42,429 nucleotides of DNA from Candidatus Bathyarchaeota archaeon (GTDB lineage Archaea > Thermoproteota > Bathyarchaeia > Bathyarchaeales > Bathycorpusculaceae): assembly GCA_017883615.1 (NCBI GenBank), contig JADGNF010000004.1, positions 1-42,429 of the forward strand. Direction: 5' to 3'. A model generated the notes under the pieces. The model was given only the letters and a program-made list of their open reading frames with translations. It was not told the origin of the DNA and did not search any database. Positions within the stretch are counted from its first letter, which is position 1. Every line of letters begins with the position of its first letter. Shown one piece after another: positions 3,382-39,222 of the stretch. A program made the translations under genes and the position numbers.

Positions 3382-3459
3382 TGGTGGGGCTGCCCGGATT
3401 TGAACCGGGGTCTATAGAGCCCAAGTCTACAAGCCTGGACCAAACTAGCCGACAGCCCC
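3382..3459 (-). tRNA. tRNA-Pro (UGG anticodon)
   Basis: On the minus strand the acceptor stem GGGGCTG pairs with CAGCCCC, followed by discriminator A and an encoded CCA at 3382-3384. The T-arm is canonical (CCCGG, TTCAAAT, CCGGG). The anticodon stem GTAGA/TCTAT closes the loop CTTGGGC, giving anticodon TGG with G37, as expected for tRNA-Pro. The D-loop keeps G18G19. There is no intron. A TATA-like element lies about 40 bases upstream. Confidence 0.93.
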
Positions 3460-4677: not shown

Positions 4678-4754
4678 TGGAGCCTCGAGCGGGCTTTGCT
4701 CCCGCGGCCTGCTGCTTACGAGGCAGCCGCTCCACTGGGCTGAGCTATCGAGGC
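4678..4754 (-). tRNA. tRNA-Thr (CGU anticodon) with non-canonical elbow loops
   Basis: On the minus strand acceptor GCCTCGA pairs with TCGAGGC, followed by discriminator T, the archaeal tRNA-Thr identity base U73, and an encoded CCA at 4678-4680. The D-stem is GCTC/GAGC, the anticodon stem GCTGC/GCAGC, the loop CTCGTAA (anticodon CGT), and the T-stem GCGGG/CCCGC. All stems pair fully. The D-loop reads AGCCCAGTG, so position 18 is A rather than G and 21 is G rather than A. The T-loop reads AGCAAAG, so 54 is A, 55 is G and 60 is G instead of TT...T. The anticodon and discriminator make the tRNA-Thr identity firm; whether the elbow folds normally is open. Confidence 0.85.
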
Positions 4755-4784: not shown

Positions 4785-4795
4785 GGTTTTTAAAC
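4785..4795 (-). promoter_or_regulatory. TATA-like element upstream of tRNA-Thr
   Basis: GTTTAAAAAC on the minus strand lies about 35 bases before the mature 5' end. This is the normal distance for an archaeal tRNA promoter and argues that the unusual tRNA-Thr is expressed. Confidence 0.5.
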
Positions 4796-4888
4796 GTTCA
4801 CCGAGTTTGCGGAGGACAAATTGGTTTAAATTTCCAAATCACCTAATCAAAGTTGGATCGAGCGGAGTCTCTTTTGGGAGAACAGAAA

Positions 4889-5917
4889 GTGAGAAACCAG
4901 AAAACTAGCAAACCATTAGCAAAAACCGTGAAGGAGTTGGGTGAACACGCCATAATCGAACTTATGCGTTCCCATTTCGAACCTATGCCCAAAGTGGTGG
5001 TTCCGTTTGGGGATGACGTTTCCGCTGTTCCTTTGGACACTGTTGTGGGAGATGTGGCGGTTTTGAAAGCAGACATGCTAGTTGCAGCCACAGACGTTCC
5101 AGCTGGGATGAGTTTGTGGCAGACAGCGCGCAAATCAGTTGTGATGAACGTGAGCGACTTCGCTGCTAAGGGAGTGCAACCGCAAGCTGTTCAAGTTTCG
5201 CTGGGTCTGCCTGGGAAAATGAAGAGGGCGGATTTGGTGGAGCTTGCCAAGGGCTTGAATGCTGGAGCCCGCGAGTATGGCGCTTACATTGTTGGCGGTG
5301 ACACTGGCGAAGCATGCGACTTAATTATTTCAGTTCAGATCTTCGGCGTTGGATCCAAGGGTGCGTCAATGCTTCGCGGTGGCGCAAGAGCCGGTGATGT
5401 TTTAGCGGTTACGGGTCTGTTTGGGCGTTCCGCGGCTGGATTGCGGCTTTTGCTGGACCCAAAATTCAAAGCTTCTTCGGCAATTCGTACAGCACTGTTG
5501 GATGCGGTTTGCATGCCAAAAGCCCGTTTACAAGAAGGTTTAGCTTTGGCAGGTTTGGGTGCTGTTTCGGCTTCGATTGATTCCAGCGACGGTTTAGCTT
5601 GGTGCATTCATGAACTTTCATCACAAAGTGGCGTAGGATTTGTGGTTTCCAATTTGCCCATTGCAGAAGAAGCCAAACAGTTTGCCACACTCAATCACTT
5701 GGATGCGGCTGAGTTAGCGTTGTATGGCGGCGAAGAATACGAGTTAGTAGTGACAATCAAACCGGAGATGTGGCGGAAAGCCCAAGAAGTCGTGGAAGCT
5801 GCTGGCGGAAAACTTTTCAGAATTGGTGAAGCGACGGTGGATAAGTGTGTTGTTTTGAATTTCGACGGCGTGAAGCATGATGTCGAAGCCCGCGGATACG
5901 AGCACTTCAAAAGTTAA
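4889..5917 (+). CDS. thiL: Thiamine-monophosphate kinase
   Basis: 342 residues from the GTG at 4889. ThiL phosphorylates thiamine monophosphate to thiamine diphosphate using ATP, the last step of cofactor synthesis. The N-terminal half has VVVPFGDDVSAV with the Asp pair that binds Mg-ATP, then LWQTARKSVVMNVSDFAAKGVQP, and GAYIVGGDTGE. The C-terminal half has ASIDSSDGLAWCIHEL and LYGGEEYELVVTI. These follow the PurM/ThiL fold order. The frame is open from TTG 4853, but GGGAG at 4876-4880, eight bases before GTG 4889, picks the later start. Its stop overlaps the stop of the convergent trmY by four bases. No TPP riboswitch is visible upstream. Confidence 0.93.
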   Translation: MRNQKTSKPLAKTVKELGEHAIIELMRSHFEPMPKVVVPFGDDVSAVPLDTVVGDVAVLKADMLVAATDVPAGMSLWQTARKSVVMNVSDFAAKGVQPQAVQVSLGLPGKMKRADLVELAKGLNAGAREYGAYIVGGDTGEACDLIISVQIFGVGSKGASMLRGGARAGDVLAVTGLFGRSAAGLRLLLDPKFKASSAIRTALLDAVCMPKARLQEGLALAGLGAVSASIDSSDGLAWCIHELSSQSGVGFVVSNLPIAEEAKQFATLNHLDAAELALYGGEEYELVVTIKPEMWRKAQEVVEAAGGKLFRIGEATVDKCVVLNFDGVKHDVEARGYEHFKS

Positions 5918-6498
5918 TCGGTTTGCGTATCTTGGTTTTTCTGTTTCTGTTGCTGGTCAAGAAGGTAATTTATGACAGTGATGCATGATGCGGCGAGGTA
6001 AGGTTGTTTTCCGAGGCTAATTTTTTCTCCGTAGCGCAGCGCAAATCGTTCCGCGTTCTTGGGTAACCCAACGTGGTCGCCAAGCACGAACAGGGGATTC
6101 TCGCAGATGTGGGTTTCCGTGATGTCTGCTCCGCCTTCTTCAAGCACGTAAATGCTGTGGGTTTCCGCTTTCGCCTTCAGTAGCGCTTCGAAGCCAGTTT
6201 TCTGCATTGACACGCCCGGGTGAGTTTTGCCGCTGACCGCTTTTTTGAGGATGGCGTTCCAGGTGTCGATGTCTGTGCGGACGTCGTAGAGTGTTTCGCC
6301 AAGGATTTGGATGTGCATGGGTGGGTTGGGCGGTCCATTGAGGACTGCGTTGAAGGTTACGTCCCTGCGCAACCCGTGCGAAAGAAACAGGCTGGCTTCG
6401 ACGCATTCGTAGACAATGTCTAGTCTGCCTGCGTCGTGCAGGTTTGTCCAGCGAGGTTCGGTTTTTCCCATTCGGGAGTAAAGGAGGAATTCGCGCAT
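5914..6498 (-). CDS. trmY: tRNA (pseudouridine-54 N1)-methyltransferase
   Basis: 194 residues, the usual TrmY length. The enzyme is a SPOUT-class methyltransferase that converts pseudouridine 54 in the tRNA T-loop to N1-methylpseudouridine, the archaeal counterpart of ribothymidine 54. Diagnostic stretches are MREFLLYSRM, GRLDIVYECVEASLFLSHGL, RRDVTFNAVLNGPPNPP, NPLFVLGDHVGLP (the SAM-binding knot) and the C-terminal YLAASCITVINYLLD. It overlaps the convergent thiL by four bases. The tRNA-Thr gene 1.2 kb away has A at position 54, so that tRNA cannot be its substrate. Confidence 0.93.
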   Translation of the reverse strand: MREFLLYSRMGKTEPRWTNLHDAGRLDIVYECVEASLFLSHGLRRDVTFNAVLNGPPNPPMHIQILGETLYDVRTDIDTWNAILKKAVSGKTHPGVSMQKTGFEALLKAKAETHSIYVLEEGGADITETHICENPLFVLGDHVGLPKNAERFALRYGEKISLGKQPYLAASCITVINYLLDQQQKQKNQDTQTD

Positions 6499-15122: not shown

Positions 15123-15271
15123 CCCGTATGAACAATATGGCTTTGCAGGACGGCAAACTCCCTAAACCCCGCATTAATCGGTTCTCCAAAATCCCAATTA
15201 ACGTCCTGCCTATCACAAGCTTTGCTGCATATCAACGAATAAACAGCCCTTCTCCTAATTGTTCATACGGG
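15123..15271. repeat. 14-bp perfect inverted repeat spanning the GT2 leader
   Basis: CCCGTATGAACAAT at 15123-15136 and its exact complement ATTGTTCATACGGG at 15258-15271, with 121 bases between them. The left arm covers the predicted transcription start and the right arm ends in the purine-rich ribosome-binding region of the glycosyltransferase gene. Confidence 0.6.
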
Positions 15272-15289
15272 AGAACGGGGCAAAAATGA
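15128..15289 (+). CDS. Possible 53-residue leader ORF overlapping the GT2 start
   Basis: An ATG lies 28 bases after a TATA box, the position of a leaderless archaeal start. The frame ends in a TGA that overlaps the glycosyltransferase ATG in the ATGA arrangement typical of coupled genes. The predicted peptide (starting MNNMALQDGKLPKPR) has no recognisable domain and is Pro/Asn/Ser-rich. It may be only an untranslated leader; the signals are suggestive and the sequence is not. Confidence 0.25.
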   Translation: MNNMALQDGKLPKPRINRFSKIPINVLPITSFAAYQRINSPSPNCSYGRTGQK

Positions 15290-16527
15290 ACATTTTCGCG
15301 ATCCTCTCCGCAGGCTTTCTTGCTGTCATGCTTTGTTGGACCATTTATCACGTGCGAATCTTGTACGCGGGAATGAAATTCAAGCCAAAACGCACCTACG
15401 AAGTCAACGGCGAACTTCCCAAGTTTTCACTCATCGTTCCAGTTAAAGACGAAGAAGCTGTAGTGGGACGTTGCCTGGATGCCTTATTGGATTTAGATTA
15501 CCCTAAAGAAAAAGTAGAGATACTGGTTGTCGAAGGTGCCTCCAAAGATTCCACCGGCAAAGTCTGCCGAGAGTTTGAAGCAAAGTATCCCGGAGCCATT
15601 AGAGTCCTAGCTGAAACTACATCTCACGGCAAACCAATTGCACTAAACTATGCTCTTACGCAGGCAACTGGAGAAATCGTAGGCGTTTTTGACGCTGACA
15701 GTGTTCCAGAAAAGAGCGTGCTAAGAAAAATAGTGTCTTACTTTCAGGATAAATCGGTATCAGCAGTTCAAGGCAGCACTGCCCCATTGAACGTCGGGCA
15801 GAACATGTTAACAAGAGTTGTCGCCATGGAGGATAAAGCTTGGTTCCAAGGTCTTCTCGGCGGCAGAGAAAAACTTAGCCTCTTCGTTCCATTAACAGGC
15901 AGTTGCCAATTCATCCGAACAGACATCCTCAAGAAGATGAGTGGCTGGGAAGAATCTGCACTCGCTGAAGACGTAGAGTTGTCATTAAAGCTTACTGAGA
16001 AAGGTTACTTAGTAAAGTATGCACCAGACATCGTCTCAGGTCAAGAATCTCCCGGAACTCTAAAAGGTCTCATTGCTCAGCGCACTCGTTGGTACCGAGG
16101 GTACATGGAGGCTTCTTTCAAATATGGGTCATTAATGAAGGCGCCCAGCCTAAAGGTGTTGGATGCAGAGTTGTCGCTGGCTGGACCTTTCGTAATGCTC
16201 GTATGCTTGCTTAGCTACTTCAACTGGGGATTCACCGCGCTGTTCGCAATAGACACCAGCCTGTTCCCGATATCAGCCGTTCTCGTAGTCGGATTAACCA
16301 CACTTACTTTGCTGTCCCTCGGGTTATCGTTAGCCATCACGGTGAAACCCATAAAGCCAAAAAACATTTTGTGGATACCATTCATCTACGTTTACTGGTT
16401 TATCCAGATGGGCATCGCCGCACGTGCCTTCTTCCAGATTCTGTTCCGAAGACGCAAAGTTTGGACGAAAACCGTCAAAGAAGGCTTCGTAACACCAACT
16501 TCAGTTCCCGGCAACTTGAAAAACTAA
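15286..16527 (+). CDS. Membrane glycosyltransferase family 2 (processive, cellulose/hyaluronan synthase-like)
   Basis: 413 residues. One N-terminal helix precedes a GT-A domain: FSLIVPVKDEEAVVGRCLDALL, ILVVEGASKDSTG, VFDADSVPE (the DxD metal site), ALAEDVELSLKL (catalytic Asp) and AQRTRWYRG (the Q..RW motif of processive enzymes). Three C-terminal helices follow. This is the layout of enzymes that extend a polysaccharide and thread it through the membrane; the sugar is unknown. The frame opens earlier, but ATG 15286 with its GGGGC upstream fits best. It is followed by the DUF3131-like secreted protein and the GT-C-like gene, which suggests one exopolysaccharide module. Confidence 0.92.
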   Translation: MNIFAILSAGFLAVMLCWTIYHVRILYAGMKFKPKRTYEVNGELPKFSLIVPVKDEEAVVGRCLDALLDLDYPKEKVEILVVEGASKDSTGKVCREFEAKYPGAIRVLAETTSHGKPIALNYALTQATGEIVGVFDADSVPEKSVLRKIVSYFQDKSVSAVQGSTAPLNVGQNMLTRVVAMEDKAWFQGLLGGREKLSLFVPLTGSCQFIRTDILKKMSGWEESALAEDVELSLKLTEKGYLVKYAPDIVSGQESPGTLKGLIAQRTRWYRGYMEASFKYGSLMKAPSLKVLDAELSLAGPFVMLVCLLSYFNWGFTALFAIDTSLFPISAVLVVGLTTLTLLSLGLSLAITVKPIKPKNILWIPFIYVYWFIQMGIAARAFFQILFRRRKVWTKTVKEGFVTPTSVPGNLKN

Positions 16528-16677
16528 AAGGCTTCTGCTTCTGGAAACTTTTCAAGGTTGCAACGAAGTTGTTCTCGTGGAAGAATTATATACCCCATGG
16601 ACGTGATGGTTTGGTGGGAGCAGTTGGATTGAGGAATAGCCCGTTTCAGGTTCATGTTTATCTTGGGAGGATTCTTA

Positions 16678-18390
16678 TTGTCCGGTCTTAAAGTTGGCGT
16701 ATTGATTTTTGCTGTTACTATGTGTTTGATGCTGGTCTTGCCTTCTTTTCAGGCTCTGGAAAATCCTCAGCCCGTTACAACTCGATCAGACAAAGTGAAC
16801 GCCCAAGTTTACGTCGATCCACAGTCAACAACGGATTCTAAAGCTTACTGGCTAAATTTAGCAACCAACGCCTGGCAATATTACCAGCCTAACAACGGTG
16901 TCAATTCAGTGACCGGGCTGGAGTCTAATGCAGTGGGTTCAAGTAGCCCCCAATTCACCGACTGGGATTTAGGAACATACGTTCAAGCAATTGTTGAAGC
17001 AGACAAGCTTGGCTTGTCCAACCCCCAGGGTTGGGATACTTCAAGCAGGCTTAACAAAGTTTTGACTTTTTTGGAAACACGTCCACTCATGGCCAACGGT
17101 CAACCGTATGCTTGGTATTCTGCCGTAACTGGGCAAAACGTTGGGATAGATGCTCAGGTTGCTTGGGATGCCGGAAACTTGCTTGTTGCGCTCAAAAACG
17201 TGGAGAATTATGGACCTACTTCTTACCTTACATCACGAATTAACAACATAGTATTTGGTCGGGCAGCGAATAATCCCACGAATTACATGACAGAAGCTCA
17301 AACAGCCGCTGCAGTAGTTGGTTGGGGACCAGACGTTTATCACTATTACCTCGCGCTAGGCTTCGGGTCCTTCTTTGACAACTATAACGGGTGGTCAGGA
17401 TTCACCCCGACTAATTTTACTTCTGAAGCAACAACGATTCTAAACAACATCGTTAGTTCCCAGAATATTTCCATAGGATTGTCGCCTCCATATGATATGT
17501 TGAAGTTACCGAAAGCGGATATACTGTGTGAACCATTACTTCTTGCAATTTTCGGCTCACAGCAACCTAATCCTGCGTTACTAAGCTTTTCGAGGCAAGT
17601 CTATTTGGCTCAGGAAGCTAGATACTACGCCACGGGCAAGTTTACCGCGTTTAGCGAGGGCGGTGCTATAGGTCAGTACGTCTATGAATGGATTGTTTTT
17701 TCTAACGGGGCCACTTGGGAAGTTCAAGATCCGAGTTACAATGTATTGTCGATATCTCCAGTAGTTTATTTGAAGGTAGCTGTGAGCTTTTTGGCACTTT
17801 ATGACACACCTTATTCTCAGAACATGGTCAGTTACCTCATACCCAAGCTTCCTGCACTTGCAAACGGATACGTCTGTGGCGCGGACGAGAACGGAGTGGT
17901 AGTTTATGACATTGAGGATAAAACTAACAGCTTAATTATCAGCGCCGCGAGGTATGCCATAGATAACAACGTTACCTTACCTGCCTCGTTCACGGCACCA
18001 AGCCCCGCTCAGTCAACTGTACCAACCTCTGGCTCTAGCTCTTCTTCCAACACTGGACCCACTGTAACATCAAACCCTCAACCTACTTCCTCACCAAGAA
18101 TTAACCCACAACAATCAAATGCACCAACGATCGCTCCTTCCCTTAGCACCACCAGCCCCTCCTCATCCAACATAACACAGGCAACTCCAACTCCTCCACA
18201 AAATTCAACAACATCAGAAAAACCATCAAAGAATCCCGCTGCCTCCGAAAGTCCAGCAAACACGCCTAACGGCAAAGATCCTTGGCAGACAAACCCAGCC
18301 ATAATCGCAGGCATAGTCGTGGTCGTTGCAATCGCTGTAATCTTGCCAGTTATTATCTTACGAAGAAACGGTTCACGTAAACCTCAATAG
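16678..18390 (+). CDS. DUF3131-like surface protein (alpha/alpha toroid, glycosidase-like)
   Basis: 570 residues from TTG 16678, chosen because GGGAGG at 16665-16670 lies seven bases before it. A signal peptide (VGVLIFAVTMCLMLVLPSF) leads into a domain of about 380 residues with repeated helical motifs. FTDWDLGTYVQAIVEADKLGL and RLNKVLTFLETRPL match the DUF3131 family, thought to be an (alpha/alpha)n-toroid related to glycoside hydrolases. A Ser/Thr/Pro linker of about 90 residues and a C-terminal helix (PAIIAGIVVVVAIAVILPVII) with a basic tail anchor it. Placed after a processive GT2, it may trim or modify the polymer outside the cell. Catalytic residues are not established. Confidence 0.8.
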   Translation: MSGLKVGVLIFAVTMCLMLVLPSFQALENPQPVTTRSDKVNAQVYVDPQSTTDSKAYWLNLATNAWQYYQPNNGVNSVTGLESNAVGSSSPQFTDWDLGTYVQAIVEADKLGLSNPQGWDTSSRLNKVLTFLETRPLMANGQPYAWYSAVTGQNVGIDAQVAWDAGNLLVALKNVENYGPTSYLTSRINNIVFGRAANNPTNYMTEAQTAAAVVGWGPDVYHYYLALGFGSFFDNYNGWSGFTPTNFTSEATTILNNIVSSQNISIGLSPPYDMLKLPKADILCEPLLLAIFGSQQPNPALLSFSRQVYLAQEARYYATGKFTAFSEGGAIGQYVYEWIVFSNGATWEVQDPSYNVLSISPVVYLKVAVSFLALYDTPYSQNMVSYLIPKLPALANGYVCGADENGVVVYDIEDKTNSLIISAARYAIDNNVTLPASFTAPSPAQSTVPTSGSSSSSNTGPTVTSNPQPTSSPRINPQQSNAPTIAPSLSTTSPSSSNITQATPTPPQNSTTSEKPSKNPAASESPANTPNGKDPWQTNPAIIAGIVVVVAIAVILPVIILRRNGSRKPQ

Positions 18391-18479
18391 TCTCCTCTCA
18401 GATCTTTTTCACGGTCAGTCGCACGGTTTTTTGACAGTTAGGATTCAGTCTTTTTCCCAAACATAGAGTTGCTGAGGTT

Positions 18480-20018
18480 TTGGGCAAATGTTTAACTTTC
18501 CAAAACCCACACTCATCTAACGTGCTTTCAAAAAAGTACCTGTTCCCGCTTCTCGCTTTCCTGGTTCCGTTGTTGATTAGGACTATTCCTGAGGTTTTAA
18601 TTGGACCCTACGTCCTTGGTTTCGATACCATGGGTATTTATGTTCCTAGCACTTTGTTGTGGTTGCACAATGGAATTAGTTTCTGGAGCTTCCTAGGAAC
18701 AGCACCACTATTTTATGCAATCCTCATTTCAATTGTTGCAGCTGGTGGACCAGTTGTTTTTGCTCTCAAGATTATTTCGCCGCTGCTTTTAGGGCTTTTG
18801 GGTTTGTCAATTTATATTTATAGTAAAAAAGTACTGGGCTGGTCTCCGATTAAGAGCTTGGTGCCTTCTCTTTTGGGAACAGTGTACTTTGTGGCTCTGC
18901 GAGTTTCTTGGGATATGCTTAGAAATGAGCTCGGTCTGATTTTCTTTTTTGTTGTTCTAACGCTTGTTGGGGAAAAGCGGAGCTCATGGAAACAAAACGT
19001 TCTACTTTCTTTAGCGATGATCGCAGTTGTTCTGTCGCATCAACTTGTTGCTGTATTAATGTTAGGCGTGGTCGTCTTTACAATCGTGCTAACATTGTTT
19101 CGAAAAGATTATTGTGGGGTCGTTAATCTTGTGGCGTTTTCTATACCAGCAGTACTCTTTTTTGCTGCTGTTTTCTTCAGTGGTTTAATGAAGTCTGGTT
19201 TCCTTGATTATTCATCAAATATCGGATCACCATTGGCTGATTGGTTAGGCTTTTCATCATATCCTTTAATGTTAGCAAGCGGAGCTGGTTTATTCTTGTA
19301 TTGTTTCCTTCCTCTCCTGCCATTGATTTTTGTAAGCCTAAAGAGTTTTGGGAACCTCCAGATTCGATCATGGCTCATTCTAAGTCTAATTCTGATGTTA
19401 ATTCCAATAGCATCAGTGAGTATTTTTCGTTGGGTATTGATGCTTACATATCCATTTGCCTTTTATGTAGCCGAAACTTTGAGTAAGCTCAAATCTATAA
19501 AATGGAAGCGTTGGAAGGTCACAATACGTGGGATCGCTATTGTTTATCTTGTTTTGTCAACTGCTACTCTGAGCTTTGGCTTTATGATATCGAGTCCGGG
19601 AAATCCTTTTCCACTTTTCAAAGCCACGCAAAACAATGGTTATAATAGTTATGTAAATGAAATTCCCACTTCTATGCTGCAAAATACAATACCTATTACT
19701 GACTGTCAGAGCACGACCAACGCCATTAGTTGGTTCAAACTTAATCTAGATAACAATTCCCTTCTACTTACACATACTGCATTCTATGGTTGGGCATTAA
19801 TAGCACTTAACGCCGACCAGGTCGTAAATTACGGGTTCGATAACCCCATTACCACAGCTGCAACAATTGTGAACGAAAGACATGAACAAACATACCTCAT
19901 ATGGTGGGTTAATGGAGAAGGTTGGTATGGATTACCAACGGTGCCATCAGCATTTAAGGAAGTTTATCAAAGCGGCAACATTGCAATATACAATTATACC
20001 GTTAATAACTTGCCTTAA
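18480..20018 (+). CDS. Polytopic membrane protein, GT-C glycosyltransferase-like
   Basis: 512 residues with about ten transmembrane helices, then an exterior domain of roughly 130 residues. The first exterior loop contains GPYVLGFDTMGIYVPST, with the acidic residue typical of the catalytic loop of GT-C enzymes that use lipid-linked sugars. The C-terminal part (TTNAISWFKLN, YGWALIALN, IAIYNYT) resembles the soluble domain of archaeal GT-C-like proteins. No specific family is recognised. The TTG start at 18480 has poor spacing from its GAGGT; GTG 18522 is an alternative. It lies 90 bases after the DUF3131-like gene. Confidence 0.65.
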   Translation: MGKCLTFQNPHSSNVLSKKYLFPLLAFLVPLLIRTIPEVLIGPYVLGFDTMGIYVPSTLLWLHNGISFWSFLGTAPLFYAILISIVAAGGPVVFALKIISPLLLGLLGLSIYIYSKKVLGWSPIKSLVPSLLGTVYFVALRVSWDMLRNELGLIFFFVVLTLVGEKRSSWKQNVLLSLAMIAVVLSHQLVAVLMLGVVVFTIVLTLFRKDYCGVVNLVAFSIPAVLFFAAVFFSGLMKSGFLDYSSNIGSPLADWLGFSSYPLMLASGAGLFLYCFLPLLPLIFVSLKSFGNLQIRSWLILSLILMLIPIASVSIFRWVLMLTYPFAFYVAETLSKLKSIKWKRWKVTIRGIAIVYLVLSTATLSFGFMISSPGNPFPLFKATQNNGYNSYVNEIPTSMLQNTIPITDCQSTTNAISWFKLNLDNNSLLLTHTAFYGWALIALNADQVVNYGFDNPITTAATIVNERHEQTYLIWWVNGEGWYGLPTVPSAFKEVYQSGNIAIYNYTVNNLP

Positions 20019-20068
20019 TCGTTCACAGGACGATGTCCTCGAATTCACGGAAACGGTTAAATTTATTC

Positions 20069-20080
20069 GAAATTTATACC
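20069..20080 (+). promoter_or_regulatory. TATA box of the small membrane protein gene
   Basis: AAATTTATACC, centred about 27 bases before the ATG at 20102. This spacing predicts a leaderless transcript. Confidence 0.45.
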
Positions 20081-20101
20081 TAACTACACGATAAGCTGAG
20101 C

Positions 20102-20359
20102 ATGAATATGACTAGAATTTACTTAAAGAGACTACTTGCCTTCTTGGCGGGCTCTATTAAACAGAATTGGGGTGCGCCCTTCATAGCGTTGTTCATTCTC
20201 CTTTTGATTGTGACCGCTGCTGCTTCTTCAATGGGTCTGGTTTCTCTCGCCGATTCCGTCACAATTGACGCGTATTATGTATTAATCGCCGGAGTCGTCT
20301 TGCAGTTTTTTTGCTTTATCAAATATCGCAAAAAACGCCCTGATGGTACAGCCACTTAA
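20102..20359 (+). CDS. Small membrane protein with two hydrophobic helices
   Basis: 85 residues: a basic amphipathic start (MTRIYLKRLLAFLAGSIKQNW), two hydrophobic helices (FIALFILLLIVTAAA and YYVLIAGVVLQFFCFI) and a basic tail (KYRKKRPDG). The family is not recognised. Its promoter, with a predicted leaderless start, sets it apart from the upstream GT-C-like gene. Its position at the end of the polysaccharide module suggests an accessory of the membrane assembly machinery, but that is context only. Confidence 0.62.
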   Translation: MNMTRIYLKRLLAFLAGSIKQNWGAPFIALFILLLIVTAAASSMGLVSLADSVTIDAYYVLIAGVVLQFFCFIKYRKKRPDGTAT

Positions 20360-20612
20360 TATTTCGTTTGGTTTTTTGAGCGTGATTTTTGTCATCGCGG
20401 AAAAGTTTGGGAAAATTCTTATCAGGTCCGATTGAAGTGTGGTCTTAGGAGATTTGCTATCAGAAATAAATTCTAAGACGATTCAAGATTACTCAAATTC
20501 ATGGAAGTAATATTTCGTGAAGAACGCTCACTTGTGGATGCGTGGAAGGGTTAATAATGTTCGAGCCGTATTTAGTGGCAAAACTATAATCTGCAACGCT
20601 GATGGTAAGTCT

Positions 20613-21773
20613 ATGGCTACAGATGACAGAGGGGTTCCATTTTTTGATCCGTGGATTAACGATGAGGATAAAAGAGCAGTCCTCGATTCATTTAATTCTC
20701 GTTGGCTAACTGGAGGCCCAAAGGCCGTTGAATTCGAAAAACTTTTCGCCAACGCTGTAGGTTCAAAATTCGCAATTTCCGTTAATAGCTGTACCGCAGC
20801 CTTACACATGGCGATGAGGGTGCTAAACGTTAAACCGGGCGACGAAGTTATTGTTCCAGTTTTGACGTTTGCCGCAACGGCGAACGCTCCCATTTTCTGC
20901 GGAGCAAAACCTGTTTTTGCAGACATCAATGAAAAGACATATAATATTTCCCCAAAGTCCATTATCGAAAAGATAACTGAAAAAACCAAAGCAATCATAG
21001 TAGTACATTACGGTGGTCAACCTTGCGACATGAAAGAAATAATGGAAATCGCAAAAGACCATAAGTTGCCTGTGGTTGAAGATTGCGCTCACACAGTTGG
21101 ATCAACCTACATGGAAAGAAAAGCAGGAAGCATCGGAACTGTAGGATGCTTCAGTTTCTATCCAACTAAGATTATAACAACCCTCGAAGGCGGAATGTTC
21201 GTTACCGACAACGAAGAAATTGCTAAACGGGCTAAAATTTTGAGAGAACACGGAATGACAAAAAGCGCTGTTGATCGGGAGAAGGGCTCAGCATGGTATT
21301 ATGACGTGGTAGACTTAGGCTACAATTATCGGTTAAACGAGATCCAAGCTGCATTGGGTATCTCCCAATTAGAAAGACTAAATGACATTAATCGACTGCG
21401 AGTTAAGGCCGCACATAACTATACCGAGTGCCTAAAAGGAATTAACGGAATTATCACCCCGTTTACAACAAAAGATAGAACGCACGCGTACCATCTATAC
21501 GTCATTCGAGTTGTAGAGAAGGAGTTCGGCATTAGTCGGAACGAGCTGTTCATGGAGCTGTCCAAGAAGAAAATAGGGCTAAGTGTTCATTATACCCCGT
21601 TGCATCTTTTAACGTTCTACAAAGACCTGTTACATCACGCGGTTGGCGATTTCCCTGTTGCCGAACGAATCTATGATGAAATTCTATCTTTACCAATATT
21701 TCCGACGATAACCAAGGAACAGCTGAATCAGGTTGTGGCTGAAATAAAACTTGCAAAAGAAAAAGCCCAATAA
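20613..21773 (+). CDS. DegT/DnrJ/EryC1/StrS-family sugar aminotransferase
   Basis: 386 residues from ATG 20613. A PLP-dependent aminotransferase for nucleotide-linked keto-sugars. VNSCTAALHMAMR binds the cofactor phosphate, VVEDCAHTVGS holds the Asp pairing with the pyridine nitrogen, and FSFYPTKIITTLEGG carries the Schiff-base Lys186. The Lys excludes an RfbH-type C3 dehydratase, which has His there. Plausible products are GDP-perosamine, using the Gmd product, or a 4-amino sugar from the PseB-like dehydratase. The frame opens at 20517, but family members start just before PFFDPW, so 20613 is preferred. The gene stands alone, with about 250 bases before it. Confidence 0.92.
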   Translation: MATDDRGVPFFDPWINDEDKRAVLDSFNSRWLTGGPKAVEFEKLFANAVGSKFAISVNSCTAALHMAMRVLNVKPGDEVIVPVLTFAATANAPIFCGAKPVFADINEKTYNISPKSIIEKITEKTKAIIVVHYGGQPCDMKEIMEIAKDHKLPVVEDCAHTVGSTYMERKAGSIGTVGCFSFYPTKIITTLEGGMFVTDNEEIAKRAKILREHGMTKSAVDREKGSAWYYDVVDLGYNYRLNEIQAALGISQLERLNDINRLRVKAAHNYTECLKGINGIITPFTTKDRTHAYHLYVIRVVEKEFGISRNELFMELSKKKIGLSVHYTPLHLLTFYKDLLHHAVGDFPVAERIYDEILSLPIFPTITKEQLNQVVAEIKLAKEKAQ

Positions 21774-21940
21774 TCATTAGTTTCTTTTTCCTCTAAACCA
21801 GAACTGAATTAAGATAACATAGCCGTTTATCGTTAGCTCGCTGGCAAAAACTTGCATTATTATCTTGTTTCTTTCCAACATAGAACGAAACAGAAACTCA
21901 GATTCACAAATTAAAGTGTGACTGCCAACTTCCCTATTTT

Positions 21941-22123
21941 TCAAAAGTCGCCTGAGACGATGCATCCGCATTTCTTGCAATGAACATGAATGCCGAATTC
22001 AAATCCTTTTTCTCCACTTCTTGTCGCCGTTTTTTTTGGAAAGATATTCCTGCATTTTGGACATACAAAGTTTTCATTGTTGAACTCCCATTTCTTAATT
22101 ATTTTGATGAGTTTTTGGCTCAT
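21941..22123 (-). CDS. Small zinc-ribbon protein (60 residues)
   Basis: Cysteine pairs FVCPKC and HCKKCGC make a four-ligand zinc ribbon, with a basic linker between them (PKKTATRSGEKG). The frame continues to an ATG at 22159, but GGGGG seven bases before the ATG at 22123 picks the shorter form, MSQKLIKIIKK. The function is unknown; nucleic-acid binding is plausible from the charge. It is transcribed away from the propeller gene. Confidence 0.55.
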   Translation of the reverse strand: MSQKLIKIIKKWEFNNENFVCPKCRNIFPKKTATRSGEKGFEFGIHVHCKKCGCIVSGDF

Positions 22124-22615
22124 TTTTGAACCCCCATTTTCCTTCATTTTTGTTTTCATGTTTGAACAACTTTTCTGGATCTTTATGTCTTCAGCGAAAC
22201 TGCAAGCTTATTTTCTTAGTCTTCAGAATTTCTACAAGTCCCTTTTTGGGTAGTTTTTTGAGTTGACTTTCTGTCTTATTTTTGATATCAGATGATTTTC
22301 TTCGATTTTCTCAAAACTTACAATAAGCTAGTACGAATTTTGGATATTTAAAGGAAAGTTGTTGCTATTTGACTGCAACATCTTACTAATCTGACTTAGA
22401 TGGGTTAAAGTTTATCGGTTTATCCTTTTTCCAACATAATGACCGGAGAGTTGATTCCTGTTGTTGGTAGAATAATTCAGACCAATCAGGTCTCAGAAGA
22501 CATTGTGAGGGTAGCTGAAGAAATCGAAAAGAAGCCGAAATTTTTCATGCTTTGTCTTTCATTTCTTATGTAATAAAAGTTAAATTTAAGTTCATATAGA
22601 GTAGTTGAGGGGACT
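22124..22615. other. AT-rich intergenic region
   Basis: About 490 bases with no recognised gene except a weak 44-codon frame near its right end, listed separately. It should contain the divergent promoters of the zinc-ribbon gene and the propeller gene. TTTAAATTTAAG-like sequence near 22580 is a candidate TATA box for the latter. Confidence 0.4.
22439..22573 (+). CDS. Possible 44-residue ORF
   Basis: ATG 22439 lies about 26 bases after GTTTATCGG, a leaderless-type spacing. The peptide has a charged middle (EDIVRVAEEIEKKPK) and a hydrophobic end (FFMLCLSFLM). No family is recognised and chance is a fair explanation. Confidence 0.2.
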   Translation: MTGELIPVVGRIIQTNQVSEDIVRVAEEIEKKPKFFMLCLSFLM

Positions 22616-24124
22616 GTGAAGACGAAAGCACTGTTGAGTGCATTCTTGGTAGCACTTATTATCGGAAGTTTACTTTTGGTTGGCACCGCGACCTCCGTTT
22701 CAATTCCCTCGACATCATGGGCAATGACTTATGGAGGAGTAAGTGCTGATGAAGCAAGATCAGTAATTCAGACTAGCGATGGGGGATATGCAATTGCTGG
22801 CTCAACGCAATCTTTTGGACACGGCGGCTGGGATATGTGGCTTGTTAAAACAAACCCAGATGGACAGATTCAATGGAACCAAACTTATGGAACCGTAAAC
22901 GACGATAGTGGCAGCCAGATAATTCAGTTGATTGATGGAGGATATGCCGTTGTTGGGTCAATTTGGAATCAGACAAGCAGTAGGGCAGATTTATTCTTGG
23001 TTCGTGTTGATTCTCAAGGTAACGCTATTTGGAATTTAGAGTACCCAATGACTAATCCTTCATATGATCCGTCCGGGTTGATGACTCGTTACGGTGGTTC
23101 ATCTTCCATTGTTCAAGGAGTTGACGGTAGCTTCGTACTTTGCTTCACCAGGAATTATCGTAGTTCATCCGGAATGCAAGCGATGGCGGATATGGGAGTC
23201 ATAAAAGTGAATGCTACAGGACAAGTAATTTGGGAAAAACTATGCAATCCCTACGGAATGGAAAGCGAAGCCAACAAGATAATACAAACAACCGAGGGGG
23301 GATATGCATTGGCAGGATTCTGGACTGGGGTGAGTGGCGGGGTCGGTGCATTATGCCTTATCAAAATTGACGCCAATGGAACTCAGCAATGGGTCAACAC
23401 CTTTGGTGACAACAACCAATTTGATATTGCTTTATCCCTCATTCAAACTTTAGAAGGCGGTTACGCGATTACTGGATATACGAATAGTAAAGGATACCCT
23501 GATTTCTGTCTCATAAAAACTGGCCCATTGGGCGATCAAACATGGTTTAAAACCTTCGGAGGAACCGGCGACGATCAGGCGTATTCTTTGGTTCAGACCA
23601 CTGATGGGGGATATGCGTTGGCAGGGTACACGGATTCTTTCGGAGCAGGTGGGCATGACATTTGGCTAGTCAGAACGGACCCGTCTGGAAACATGAAGTG
23701 GAACAACACGTACGGGGGAGCAGGTAATGATTTCGCGTATTCATTGATCGCAACTAGTGATGGTGGTTTCGCATTGGCAGGCGGAACAACTTCTTTTGGA
23801 GCGGGAAGCGAGGATTTCTTTCTAGTAAAAGTAGCAGACATAAATCCAACTCCTTCCCCAACTGTAACATCGACTCCTACCTCAGCACAATCTCTTTCCC
23901 CAACTGTAACATCGACTCCTACCTCAGCACAATCTCTTTCCCCAACTGTAACATCGACTCCTACCTCAGCACCTTCCTTATCCCCTACAAATACAAATGC
24001 CACACCAAATTCGACACCCCCATTAACTCCTTCTGCTCCAGAATTTTCTTCTATCATTGTCGCAATAGTCCTACTAGTGGCGTTGACATTAACACTCTCA
24101 GTTTTCAAGAAAAGAGCTCCATGA
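22616..24124 (+). CDS. Secreted seven-repeat beta-propeller protein with PT stalk and C-terminal anchor
   Basis: 502 residues. After a signal peptide (about 1-28) come seven copies of a 50-60-residue repeat built around SLIQTxDGGYALAGxT, D-WLVKTDxxGxxxWN and TYGG. Seven is the usual blade number of a beta-propeller. The third copy is diverged (SSIVQGVDGSFVLCF). A Thr/Ser/Pro linker from about residue 410 contains a 42-base tandem repeat, and a hydrophobic helix (IIVAIVLLVALTLTLSVF) with a KKRAP tail anchors it. Start GTG 22616 follows GAGGGG by three bases, a little tight. A binding or adhesion role outside the cell is inferred. Confidence 0.8.
   Translation: MKTKALLSAFLVALIIGSLLLVGTATSVSIPSTSWAMTYGGVSADEARSVIQTSDGGYAIAGSTQSFGHGGWDMWLVKTNPDGQIQWNQTYGTVNDDSGSQIIQLIDGGYAVVGSIWNQTSSRADLFLVRVDSQGNAIWNLEYPMTNPSYDPSGLMTRYGGSSSIVQGVDGSFVLCFTRNYRSSSGMQAMADMGVIKVNATGQVIWEKLCNPYGMESEANKIIQTTEGGYALAGFWTGVSGGVGALCLIKIDANGTQQWVNTFGDNNQFDIALSLIQTLEGGYAITGYTNSKGYPDFCLIKTGPLGDQTWFKTFGGTGDDQAYSLVQTTDGGYALAGYTDSFGAGGHDIWLVRTDPSGNMKWNNTYGGAGNDFAYSLIATSDGGFALAGGTTSFGAGSEDFFLVKVADINPTPSPTVTSTPTSAQSLSPTVTSTPTSAQSLSPTVTSTPTSAPSLSPTNTNATPNSTPPLTPSAPEFSSIIVAIVLLVALTLTLSVFKKRAP
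23858..23972 (+). repeat. 42-bp tandem repeat in the propeller protein stalk
   Basis: Two full units (23858-23899, 23900-23941) and a third partial unit encode PTVTSTPTSAQSLS-like peptides. The DNA is essentially identical between units, so the array is recent or kept uniform by recombination. Unit length is 14 codons, so copy changes keep the frame. Confidence 0.9.
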
Positions 24125-24459
24125 AACTATCATTATTTGTCCTTTTTTTTGTGTGATATCCGTGATATACGCGTGGATCTAAGTAGGCGAGAAAGAAAGA
24201 ATAGGACTTGGAATAGAAAAGAGATTTTGAACATATAGAGACTAGAAAGCGAGTTAGAAAGATTTGGGTTTGAGATTTAATTGAAGTTGAGTTCTAAATC
24301 CGCAAGCGATCATTTTGCTAAGTCTTTTAATAAAAAGTCCCAAAGATGCTAAAATTAGCTTGCACCCCAATGGAAAAAAGCAGCCGTTGACTCGGTGTTA
24401 AACAAGTCACTTTTCTGGTTTTCATTTGTCAACTTTCATAGCCTCTACGAACGCGTAAA
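24125..24459. other. Intergenic region without a recognised gene
   Basis: About 335 bases between the propeller gene and the promoter of the next operon. No convincing frame, RNA gene or repeat was seen. Confidence 0.4.
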
Positions 24460-24467
24460 CTTTATAC
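24459..24467 (+). promoter_or_regulatory. TATA-like element upstream of the glycosyltransferase operon
   Basis: ACTTTATAC is followed about 25 bases later by a predicted start near 24490 and by GAGGAG at 24492-24497. Confidence 0.4.
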
Positions 24468-24506
24468 TCAAGTCGGCATAAACTGGAAGCTGAGGAGACT
24501 TTGCGG

Positions 24507-24716
24507 ATGGGAGTGGAGGGGAAATTTGATGGTCCTTTGAAGATCAAAGAAAAGTTAACAATAAATAAAAACCAGTATGAAAACACACCACATTACGAAT
24601 TATTGCAAAACGTCTGTAAGAGCCAGCGCTCCACCACTTCGGCAATTCCAAAGGAAGTATCTTTATTCACGGTTATATTCAGTTCGAATAGGAAGACCTC
24701 AAATGTTCTCGATTGA
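24507..24716 (+). CDS. Possible 69-residue ORF ahead of the glycosyltransferase
   Basis: ATG 24507 has a good GAGGAG nine bases upstream and a TATA-like element at the right distance. The product is polar, without recognised domains (MRMGVEGKFDGPLKIKEKL onward). It ends 14 bases inside the following glycosyltransferase gene, in another frame, which would allow coupled translation. The signals favour expression, the sequence does not help, and it could be a translated leader. Confidence 0.3.
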   Translation: MGVEGKFDGPLKIKEKLTINKNQYENTPHYELLQNVCKSQRSTTSAIPKEVSLFTVIFSSNRKTSNVLD

Positions 24717-25536
24717 GAAGGTTAGTCTTGAAATGCCATCTGCCATTTGTAGAGAAGATTTTGAATCGATGTTATCGTCTCAGGAAAATATCTGCGAAGG
24801 AACCTTGTCGATTGTACTTCCAATTTATAATGAAGAATCAGTTTTGGAATCAAATGTTCTAAGGCTCCGATCTTACATGAAATCGGCTTTCAAATGTAAA
24901 TGGGAAATTGTTATTGCCGACAATTTTTCGACAGATCAAACACCGAGTATAGGCCAGAAACTTGCTGAATCATATTCCGAAGTCAAGTACCTTAGAATAG
25001 ATCGCAAAGGGGTTGGTATAGCGCTCAAGACAGCATGGGATAGTAGCCGGGCAGATGTTCAATGCCATGTAGATGGTGATCTTCCTTTTGATTTTGATGA
25101 CATAAAACGTGTAATCCAGGCGGCTCAAGAGGGCTACGATGTTTGCTTTGGGTCCCGTTTTGCGGTCGGATCATTCACCGATGCTAAACCCCTTAGGAGA
25201 TACCTTTCCATAGTCTTCCATTATTGGATTAAGCTGCTTTTTTCATATGAATACAGTGATATCTGTGGAATAAAGGCTGTGAGACGAGAGGCGTTCTCAG
25301 TGTTGTCGCCGCACTTATCAAGCGACGGCTGGTTCTTCAATACTGAGTTAATGCTTCTTGCTGACAGAGCGAATATGTCAATCAAAGAAGTTCCAGTGCG
25401 GGTGAAAGATCCTCCTGGAAGAAAGAGCAAAGTAAAATTGCTACAAACTATTGCAAATCTATTTATACTGACATTCAAGTTGAGACTCAAATTCTGGGTA
25501 GACGGTTCAGTCCAGAAAACTAGGCGAGCCCGTTAA
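24703..25536 (+). CDS. Glycosyltransferase family 2 (dolichol-phosphate-sugar synthase-like)
   Basis: 277 residues. LSIVLPIYNEESVLESNV is strand 1, IVIADNFSTDQTP follows, CHVDGDLPFDFDDI holds the DxD-type metal site, and the region CFGSRFAVGS then SDICGIKAVRREAF is as in DPM1/DPG synthases. There is no C-terminal membrane domain. It probably charges a polyprenol phosphate with a sugar, or adds a sugar to a lipid-linked chain. The frame is open to ATG 24577, but AGGAAG upstream of ATG 24703 and normal family length favour the later start. It begins a tight three-gene operon; the next gene starts two bases after its stop. Confidence 0.85.
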   Translation: MFSIEKVSLEMPSAICREDFESMLSSQENICEGTLSIVLPIYNEESVLESNVLRLRSYMKSAFKCKWEIVIADNFSTDQTPSIGQKLAESYSEVKYLRIDRKGVGIALKTAWDSSRADVQCHVDGDLPFDFDDIKRVIQAAQEGYDVCFGSRFAVGSFTDAKPLRRYLSIVFHYWIKLLFSYEYSDICGIKAVRREAFSVLSPHLSSDGWFFNTELMLLADRANMSIKEVPVRVKDPPGRKSKVKLLQTIANLFILTFKLRLKFWVDGSVQKTRRAR

Positions 25537-25538
25537 TC

Positions 25539-26705
25539 ATGATTGCAAAAAGCTTCATCGTTGTCACACACAAATTCACAGCTTCCACCCAAGACGATTT
25601 AGTAGAATATCTGGATAAGCGTTTTGAAAGAGTGTTGTTTGTGTGGCATGATTTCGCTGATTGTCCCAATAGAAGGTCGTTTTGCGAAGAACACCGAAAT
25701 GGCGTAATCGTGAAAAGGTGGATGAGCAGAGACTTTCGGGATATGCCTGAACCCTTTGTTATGATTAAAGATTTCCTCTTTGCGACGTATAGCATATTGC
25801 GAACAGGAAAAAGTTGGGATGTCTCAATTGGCCTTTGCGGATTCGATGCATTACCTGGGATAATTCTGAAAAACCTCCTCAGAGTAGGCAAAACAGTGTT
25901 TTGGGCGGGCGATTTTGTTCCTAACTCGCGTTTCAGAGAAGGGTGGAAGAACATAATCTATTTTCAGGAAAATCGTTATGTTCTCAAGAGATGTGATTAT
26001 GCTTGGAACATTTCGCCCAGAGTTGAAAAATTAAGAGAGAAAATGTATGGGATCAAATCAAAACGGCAGCAACGAATTGTGCCGATAGGAATCTGGACAA
26101 GTCGCAGAGTGAAATTGCCCATTGAAAAAATTCACAAGCACAGAGTGCTTTTCGTTGGCCATTTGCTTGAAAAACAGGGCGTTCAATTAGTTCTTAAAGC
26201 AATACCTGAAATAAGAAAAACGATATCTGATTTTGAGTTCTTGATCATTGGCAAGGGCAATTACGAGACTACACTAAGATGTTTGGCGAAAGAACTTGGA
26301 GTCGAAGATTGTGTTCAGTTCGCAGGATACAAGAGCGATGAAGAAATGGAGCAGCTGTCCTCAGGTTGCGCTTGTGCGGTTGCTCCATATGATATGAAGA
26401 CTGATACTTGGACCCGCTATGCTGATCCTGCGAAAATAAAAACCTATTTGGCCTCAGCCCTGCCCGTTATTTTGACTGATGTTCCATACAACGCATACGA
26501 TATCCAGAGGCAACGATGCGGGATGGTCATCAAGTATGATACCGATGAGATGACAAATGCGATTATAACTCTGCTTTCAAATAAATCGCTATTAGAAGAG
26601 TATCGGAATAATGCTTTCAAGTATTCTAAACAATTTGATTGGAATAACATCTTTGATGGGGCTATAAATGAGGTAATAGCCTCAAGTAGTGAATGCTCAT
26701 CATGA
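25539..26705 (+). CDS. Glycosyltransferase, GT-B fold (family 4-like)
   Basis: 388 residues. The C-terminal half carries the retaining GT4-type nucleotide-sugar site: HRVLFVGHLLEKQGVQLVLKAI, FEFLIIGKGNYE, VQFAGYKSDEEMEQL, then DPAKIKTYLASALPVILTDVP, with the E of the usual EX7E replaced by a K-containing stretch. The N-terminal half (ITHKFTASTQDDL... VGKTVFWAGDFVP) is the acceptor domain. The donor is probably one of the activated sugars made in the 33-42 kb cluster. It sits between a GT2 and a large membrane protein, with two bases and a 13-base overlap respectively, so all three are one transcript. Confidence 0.85.
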   Translation: MIAKSFIVVTHKFTASTQDDLVEYLDKRFERVLFVWHDFADCPNRRSFCEEHRNGVIVKRWMSRDFRDMPEPFVMIKDFLFATYSILRTGKSWDVSIGLCGFDALPGIILKNLLRVGKTVFWAGDFVPNSRFREGWKNIIYFQENRYVLKRCDYAWNISPRVEKLREKMYGIKSKRQQRIVPIGIWTSRRVKLPIEKIHKHRVLFVGHLLEKQGVQLVLKAIPEIRKTISDFEFLIIGKGNYETTLRCLAKELGVEDCVQFAGYKSDEEMEQLSSGCACAVAPYDMKTDTWTRYADPAKIKTYLASALPVILTDVPYNAYDIQRQRCGMVIKYDTDEMTNAIITLLSNKSLLEEYRNNAFKYSKQFDWNNIFDGAINEVIASSSECSS

Positions 26706-38178: not shown

Positions 38179-39222
38179 TTGAAGAGGGCGTTTGTTACAG
38201 GAATTACAGGTCAAGATGGTTCATACTTAACCGAGTTTCTTTTGTCAAAAGACTATGAAGTTCATGGAATAATTCGACGGGCGAGCACTTTTAATACTGG
38301 TAGAATTGACCACATTTATGTTGATCCTCATGAGCCCAATGCACGCCTTTTTCTTCACTATGGGGATTTGTCTGATTCGGAGCAAACCTCCAACATTTTG
38401 TACAACATAAAACCAGATGAAGTCTACCATCTTGCTGCACAAAGCCACGTTAAAGTTAGTTTTAATATGCCTGAGTATACTGGAAACGTTACTGGTCTCG
38501 GAACTGTTAGACTTTTGGAATCAATTAGACGGAGTGGAAATGAAACAAAATTCTATCAGGCTTCCAGCAGTGAAATGTTCGGTAGAACTGCTTCACCTCA
38601 AAATGAAGAGAGCGCGTTTAGTCCAACAAGTCCTTATGCAGTAGCAAAAGTTTATGCTTATTGGATGGCAAAGAATTACCGCCTCGGGTATGGATTGTTT
38701 GCCTGTAATGGCATTCTTTTTAATCATGAATCGCCGCGCAGAGGCGAGATATTTGTTACCCGAAAGATTACGATGGCTATAGCTAGTATTATCGCCAAGA
38801 AACAGCAATATTTGTATCTTGGAAACTTAGAGCCGAAACGCGACTGGGGATTTGCACCCGAGTATGTTGAAGTAATGTGGAAGATTTTGCAACAAGAGAC
38901 GGCTGACGATTATGTCGTGGGGACTGGAGAGCAGCATTCTGTGCGCGAGTTTGTGGACCAAGCTTTCTCCTATGTTGGCTTGAAGTGGGATCAGTATGTG
39001 AGAACCGACCCGAAGTATTTCAGACCTACTGAAACTGAAGATCTGGTTGCTGATTCAAGGAAGATTAAGAAGACTATTGGTTGGGCGCCTAAGATTCGGT
39101 TTAGCGAATTAGTAAAAATTATGGTTGACGCTGATTTGAGAAGAGCAGGATTAGCAACAATAGGTGAGGGCGATGAATTTTTGAGGAAGCAGTTTCCAAA
39201 TCGGTGGTGGAAGACAGATTGA
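38179..39222 (+). CDS. gmd: GDP-mannose 4,6-dehydratase
   Basis: 347 residues, the family length. [18 protein letters not shown] is the NADP motif; [35 protein letters not shown] and [18 protein letters not shown] hold the Ser/Thr, Glu and YxxxK catalytic residues; [13 protein letters not shown] is diagnostic of Gmd. It makes GDP-4-keto-6-deoxymannose, the branch point for GDP-fucose, GDP-rhamnose and GDP-perosamine. The TTG start is supported by AAGGG about seven bases upstream. It overlaps the next gene by 19 bases, consistent with one operon making GDP-fucose. Confidence 0.95.

Follow-up and report, generated by a model that had tools for sequence, protein, structure and literature searches.

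An unusual elbow in the tRNA-Thr(CGU) gene of a Bathyarchaeota archaeon and its relatives

Can a tRNA serve translation when both partners of the contact between residue 18 and residue 55 have been replaced? This contact, normally formed by G18 and pseudouridine 55 (Psi55), is regarded as near-universal in cytosolic tRNA (PMC4810234). In the known anatomy, residue 18 is inserted into the T-loop as the partner of 55, the loop turns at U55, and 54 pairs with 58 (PMC4810234, PMC7912444). The tRNA-Thr(CGU) gene described here departs from this arrangement at five positions.

The tRNA-Thr(CGU) gene and its surroundings

The window, meaning the whole stretch of 42,429 nucleotides analysed, is one contig of a source genome assembled in 79 contigs (1.73 Mb, 95% complete). 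Its features relevant to the question are the following.

4678..4754, (-): tRNA-Thr(CGU) gene with encoded CCA and intact cloverleaf (ARAGORN; Rfam RF00005, 53.9 bits)
4736, (-): A18, where G18 is normal; 16 of 72 distinct Thr-UGU/CGU genes carry A18 (sequence)
4733, (-): G21, where A21 is normal; private to few species and outside the covarying set (sequence comparison)
4700, (-): A54, where U54 is normal; faces the retained A58 at 4696 (sequence; relatives)
4699, (-): G55, where U55/pseudouridine 55 is normal; found only with A18 (sequence; 72-gene table; tree test)
4694, (-): G60, where a pyrimidine is normal; usual companion of A54 within the family (sequence comparison)
4787..4794, (-): TATA box TTTAAAAA, located 33-40 nt ahead of the mature 5′ end (flank comparison with congeners)
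4853..5917, (+): AIR-synthase-related protein, divergent neighbour with conserved synteny (Pfam PF00586/PF02769; adjoins Thr-CGU in relatives)
5914..6498, (-): TrmY-like RNA methyltransferase (Pfam PF04013, 141.8 bits; PDB 2qmm and 3aia (MJ1640); synteny)
3382..3459, (-): tRNA-Pro(UGG) with canonical elbow, a same-strand neighbour given for context only (ARAGORN, Rfam)

The tRNA reads, 5′ to 3′, GCCUCGA UA GCUC AGCCCAGUG GAGC G GCUGC CUCGUAA GCAGC AGGCC GCGGG AGCAAAG CCCGC UCGAGGC U CCA, with the D-loop A14 G15 C16 C17 C17a A18 G19 U20 G21 and the T-loop A54 G55 C56 A57 A58 A59 G60. All four stems are paired, the Rfam match over 4678-4754 (E 5.7e-9) has only standard pairs, and U73 and CCA are encoded in the gene. 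The earlier note on this DNA had described the stems, the discriminator, the CCA end and a TATA box at the right distance in the same way, and had named each of the five odd bases correctly. G19-C56, G15-C48, U8/A14 and A58 are retained as normal. Cloverleaf and NGU-type threonine anticodon (CGU) assign the gene to the archaeal elongator tRNA-Thr by both ARAGORN and Rfam. It carries the U73 discriminator of archaeal tRNA-Thr, an identity element in Haloferax volcanii (PMC9976931) and a determinant whose strength differs among archaea. With A18 and G55 the tRNA lacks the G18-Psi55 contact; this contact is a general feature of tRNA, not one that defines tRNA-Thr, and its absence is reported here as a deviation.

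Congeneric Thr-CGU genes retain the box TTTAAAAA upstream, although the remaining flank bases have diverged; the Thr-UGU genes have an upstream element of their own in common, AACTTTTATTTG. The AIR-synthase-like and TrmY-like genes flank Thr-CGU in most of the relatives examined. The TrmY-like protein, encoded 1.2 kb from tRNA-Thr(CGU), belongs to the family of the archaeal pseudouridine-54 N1-methyltransferase, and Pus10 is present as well. The two show that the usual machinery for pseudouridine 54 and 55 is present; Thr-UGU and Thr-CGU cannot be its substrates at these positions, where A54 and G55 preclude pseudouridine as already noted. The family-wide synteny between a gene of a pseudouridine-54-methylating family and a tRNA-Thr devoid of U54 is probably a coincidence. 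Elsewhere in the window there is a surface-glycan cluster (15259-26705 and 38179-39222) with glycosyltransferases, a GDP-mannose 4,6-dehydratase and a PseC-like transaminase (20517-21773, score slightly below its cut-off), as well as a 600-amino-acid protein with InlB B-repeat-like domains (PF18998; 12157-13959, (+)) that is likely a surface protein.

The tRNA scan of the source genome gave 34 matches, complemented by ARAGORN readings. There are three Thr tRNAs: GGU (G18, T54, C55), CGU, and UGU, whose elbow is the A18/A54/G55/G60 of Thr-CGU. No canonical copy of Thr-UGU or Thr-CGU was found by the scan and ARAGORN in this 95% complete genome. A second, canonical Thr-CGU, which the earlier note had named, with this copy silent, among the observations that would count against its reading, was thus not found. 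A congener (G005; a single 2.73 Mb contig, 96% complete, 40 tRNA matches) also has just three Thr tRNAs, GGU, UGU and CGU, the latter two with A18/G55. ACA has no reader in it other than the odd-elbow Thr-UGU, and this elbow must therefore work. Threonine codons ACA and ACG occur 223 and 106 times among the 9,744 codons of the 24 ORFs of the window. Judging by decoding rules, the Thr-UGU and Thr-CGU tRNAs with the odd elbow almost certainly function in elongation.

The other tRNAs read in the source genome have G18 and T54, the Met tRNAs among them with T54, and the sole exception is an intron-like CAU tRNA with C54. This tRNA-like gene of 104-105 nt has CAU at the anticodon position, an intron-like insert and the T-loop CTCGAAT; it is found in the source genome (C79:5611-5715, L021) and in G005 (C1:2100555-2100658, L187), and ARAGORN called neither copy in any intron mode tried. 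Another irregular call, tRNA-Arg(CCU) of 81 nt (source genome C52:9738-9818, L204), has an odd and unusually long 5′ half; it may contain an intron or be a miscall. The T-loop reads T54 C55 C56 in tRNA-Asn (L006), tRNA-Asp (L022) and tRNA-Thr-GGU (L015) of the source genome, and likewise in Val (L176, L183) and Glu-UUC (L190) tRNAs of G005. With C55 replacing U55 in several unrelated tRNAs, not every tRNA of this lineage has pseudouridine 55. G55 is an unusual base, as the earlier note stated, but the gene is not alone in lacking U55.

Spread and covariation of the altered bases

Near-identical genes are found in named relatives, all of them Bathyarchaeota and including the termite-gut Bathycorpusculum. 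In most congeners the A18/A54/G55/G60 set is found in Thr-UGU as well as in Thr-CGU, which, together with its presence in the Thr-UGU of the source genome, exceeds what chance would give; the same odd bases recur in independent assemblies from other samples. The comparison that the earlier note had proposed, of Thr-CGU in relatives and in the rest of the genome, hence places the odd elbow in congeners and in the genome's own Thr-UGU. A phylum-wide pattern search of 398 genomes retrieved A54 in Thr-UGU/CGU from 55 of them, a few of these being chance matches that are not tRNA. In that search A54 extends over almost all of the family to which the window belongs. It occurs with U60 in one other family of the same order and, outside the class, in Thr-CGU of one family, mostly with U60. 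It is also present in Ca. Nitrosothermus, a recurrence in Nitrososphaeria. The combination U54/G60 was seen in one gene (L046). A18/G55 is confined to two genera of the family by both the pattern search and the gene comparison; G55 pattern matches outside the family (G069, G073) do not resemble arms of a tRNA and were discounted as fortuitous. In two fairly complete genomes of one genus (G221 and G329, genus g12) no such Thr-UGU/CGU gene was found, for which a gap, an intron or divergence may account.

The altered bases therefore form two layers: A54, usually with G60, is an old and widespread one in Thr-UGU/CGU of the family, and A18 followed by G55 a young one, limited here to two genera. 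G21 is private to the species and a few relatives. The five odd bases that the earlier note had grouped in one elbow are all real; they do not stem from one event.

Among 72 distinct Thr-UGU/CGU genes, positions 18 and 55 are G/U in 55, A/G in 11, A/U in five and G/C in one (a Thr-UGU, L105); G/G does not occur (Fisher p 1.7e-9, descent ignored). A58 is invariant in all 72, and so are G19-C56 and G15-C48; for these two pairs the result is partly imposed by the search pattern in the pattern-found subset and not in the BLAST-found subset. Descent was taken into account with a ThrRS tree, a single-gene tree of 28 genomes in which several forks are weakly supported. The fewest changes on it are five per position for CGU and likewise five for UGU, and those at 18 and 55 nearly always coincide; this count of independent events could be inflated if UGU and CGU copies have undergone partial gene conversion. 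A Pagel-type likelihood test on the same tree (47 gene states, root fixed at G/U) favours dependence of the two positions (LR 43.1, 4 df, p about 1e-8). In the fitted rates the gain of G55 is near zero unless A18 is present, and the reversal of A18 to G18 is near zero while G55 is present. The conservative independent-pair sign test of treekit had too few fully supported pairs for significance. On this evidence from sequences G55 appears to arise only after A18, and the earlier proposal of co-variation rather than decay holds.

The A18/G55 CGU genes of several species keep CGU-type bases at positions 4, 20 and 59, which makes simple gene conversion from UGU unlikely as the sole source of the CGU change; short converted patches could still have contributed. 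Secondary structure was also considered and ruled out as the cause of the 18/55 linkage: the four 18/55 combinations on an A21 background have the same folding energies within error and equal gaps between cloverleaf and minimum free energy (MFE) structure. A tertiary cause fits this neutrality best. The bare MFE structure of the native unmodified sequence differs from the cloverleaf by 2.5 kcal/mol, a gap caused by G21 and not by 18/55.

How the elbow may be held

We consider it likely that the gene encodes a functional elongator tRNA-Thr and that its elbow was remodelled in two stages, A54 coming before A18 and G55. The old step would be U54 to A54, usually with G60. The 54-58 closure would thereby become a wider purine pair, A54/A58, and position 60 a purine, which is the arrangement of eukaryotic initiator tRNA. 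The recent step, in two genera, would begin with G18 to A18. The resulting A18/U55 would be a tolerated intermediate, plausibly paired in reverse Watson-Crick fashion, and U55 to G55 would follow. A18 presumably keeps its stacked position, intercalated between 57 and 58, while G55 would maintain the sharp loop turn, where 55-58 read GCAA, a GNRA-type turn, and would form a purine-purine pair with A18. The loops would still be docked through G19-C56 and G15-C48. The sequence, its conservation, the covariation with its order, the absence of a canonical substitute and the conserved promoter are observed; the geometry of the A18/G55 contact, the expression and charging of the tRNA and the reason for the change are inferred, and the sole ACA reader of G005 speaks indirectly for expression, charging with threonine and use on the ribosome. 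The fuller proposal is one of which we are slightly more doubtful than confident: a stable A18/G55 substitute for G18-Psi55, with a GNRA-type T-loop turn over an A54/A58 closure, would have evolved stepwise (G-U, A-U, A-G), and more than once, among the essential cytosolic elongator tRNAs that Bathyarchaeia possess.

The main alternative is relaxation, the 18-55 contact having become dispensable: A54/G60 would stabilise the loop, A18 would weaken the contact and position 55 would drift with no new pair being formed. Loss of U55 is indeed tolerated in the lineage, as the C55 of the Asn, Asp, Thr-GGU, Val and Glu tRNAs and the single G18/C55 Thr-UGU indicate, and once A18 had weakened the contact G55 could be merely tolerated. 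Drift should however yield A, C and G at position 55, and only U or G accompanies A18, G55 is never found with G18, and A18 hardly reverts in its presence; we regard relaxation as rather unlikely. That position 54 escapes pseudouridylation despite Pus10 and the TrmY-like enzyme encoded 1.2 kb away could also suggest a tRNA partly diverted from translation, or hidden from a modification enzyme. Recognition by elongation factor or by Pus10/TrmY would then be lowered by the odd elbow, as in non-proteinogenic tRNAs. This is very improbable for a lineage in which a Thr-UGU with the same elbow must serve translation as the only ACA reader and has no canonical copy besides it. Finally, a decaying or silent gene, or an assembly or sequencing error, could explain why one gene deviates at five near-invariant positions. 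Against this the stems are perfect, relatives conserve the gene with its TATA box and synteny, no canonical substitute is present, and identical bases in independent assemblies of other samples rule out decay and error, a reading that retains next to no probability. Compared with these alternatives, a rebuilt elbow is our preferred reading, and nature seems to have found an alternative route to holding the L shape of tRNA.

Comparison with known tRNAs

The elbow of eukaryotic initiator tRNA-Met (A20, A54, A60; A54/A58) is similar in having A54 with A58, a purine at 60 and no possibility of thymidine or pseudouridine at 54 (PMC10602860, PMC7912444). The gene here shares the initiator-like arrangement of A54 facing A58 with G60, but its anticodon is CGU and not CAU: it is an archaeal elongator tRNA-Thr, with G60 instead of A60 and with 18 and 55 also changed, while the initiator keeps U55. 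The earlier note had mentioned A54 from initiators; it occurs in these, and also in eukaryotic tRNA-Ala(AGC), an elongator with A54/A58, R15/A48 and a purine at 60 (PMC7566577). In contrast to that tRNA, the 72 genes analysed here all have a normal G15-C48. According to the same study archaeal tRNAs do not show such unusual pairs; for 54/58 the A54 Thr genes are an exception, which corrects the view of A54/A58 tertiary pairs as absent from Archaea. A59 followed by G60, a rare combination, is shared with the Thr, Ile and elongator Met tRNAs of Pyrococcus furiosus, for which the available text of PMC7668247 reports the 59-60 combination only and not A54.

Disruption of the G18-Psi55 contact slows ribosomal translocation (PMC4810234). 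Essential natural tRNAs in which both partners are replaced, with intermediates alive in relatives, make it directly testable what the 18-55 pair is needed for and whether a tRNA can do without pseudouridine 55. A literature search outside the major tRNA surveys found no described A18/G55 elbow, and the Thr tRNAs present a real, conserved and lineage-specific elbow variant, new as far as could be checked and of specialist interest. Mutants of the 18-55 pair reported by Pan et al. in 2006, a work cited in PMC4810234, reportedly showed, by its title, that rapid translocation depends on the pair; the same tertiary contact is altered here, in a double substitution that nature keeps in genes that are essential. 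Suppressor tRNAs obtained by selection from libraries of D/T-loop variants (Zagryadskaya, Doyon and Steinberg, 2003-2004) are reported to function with non-standard 54-58 and 18-55 combinations. Those are laboratory selections, whereas the A18/G55 Thr tRNAs belong to a natural lineage.
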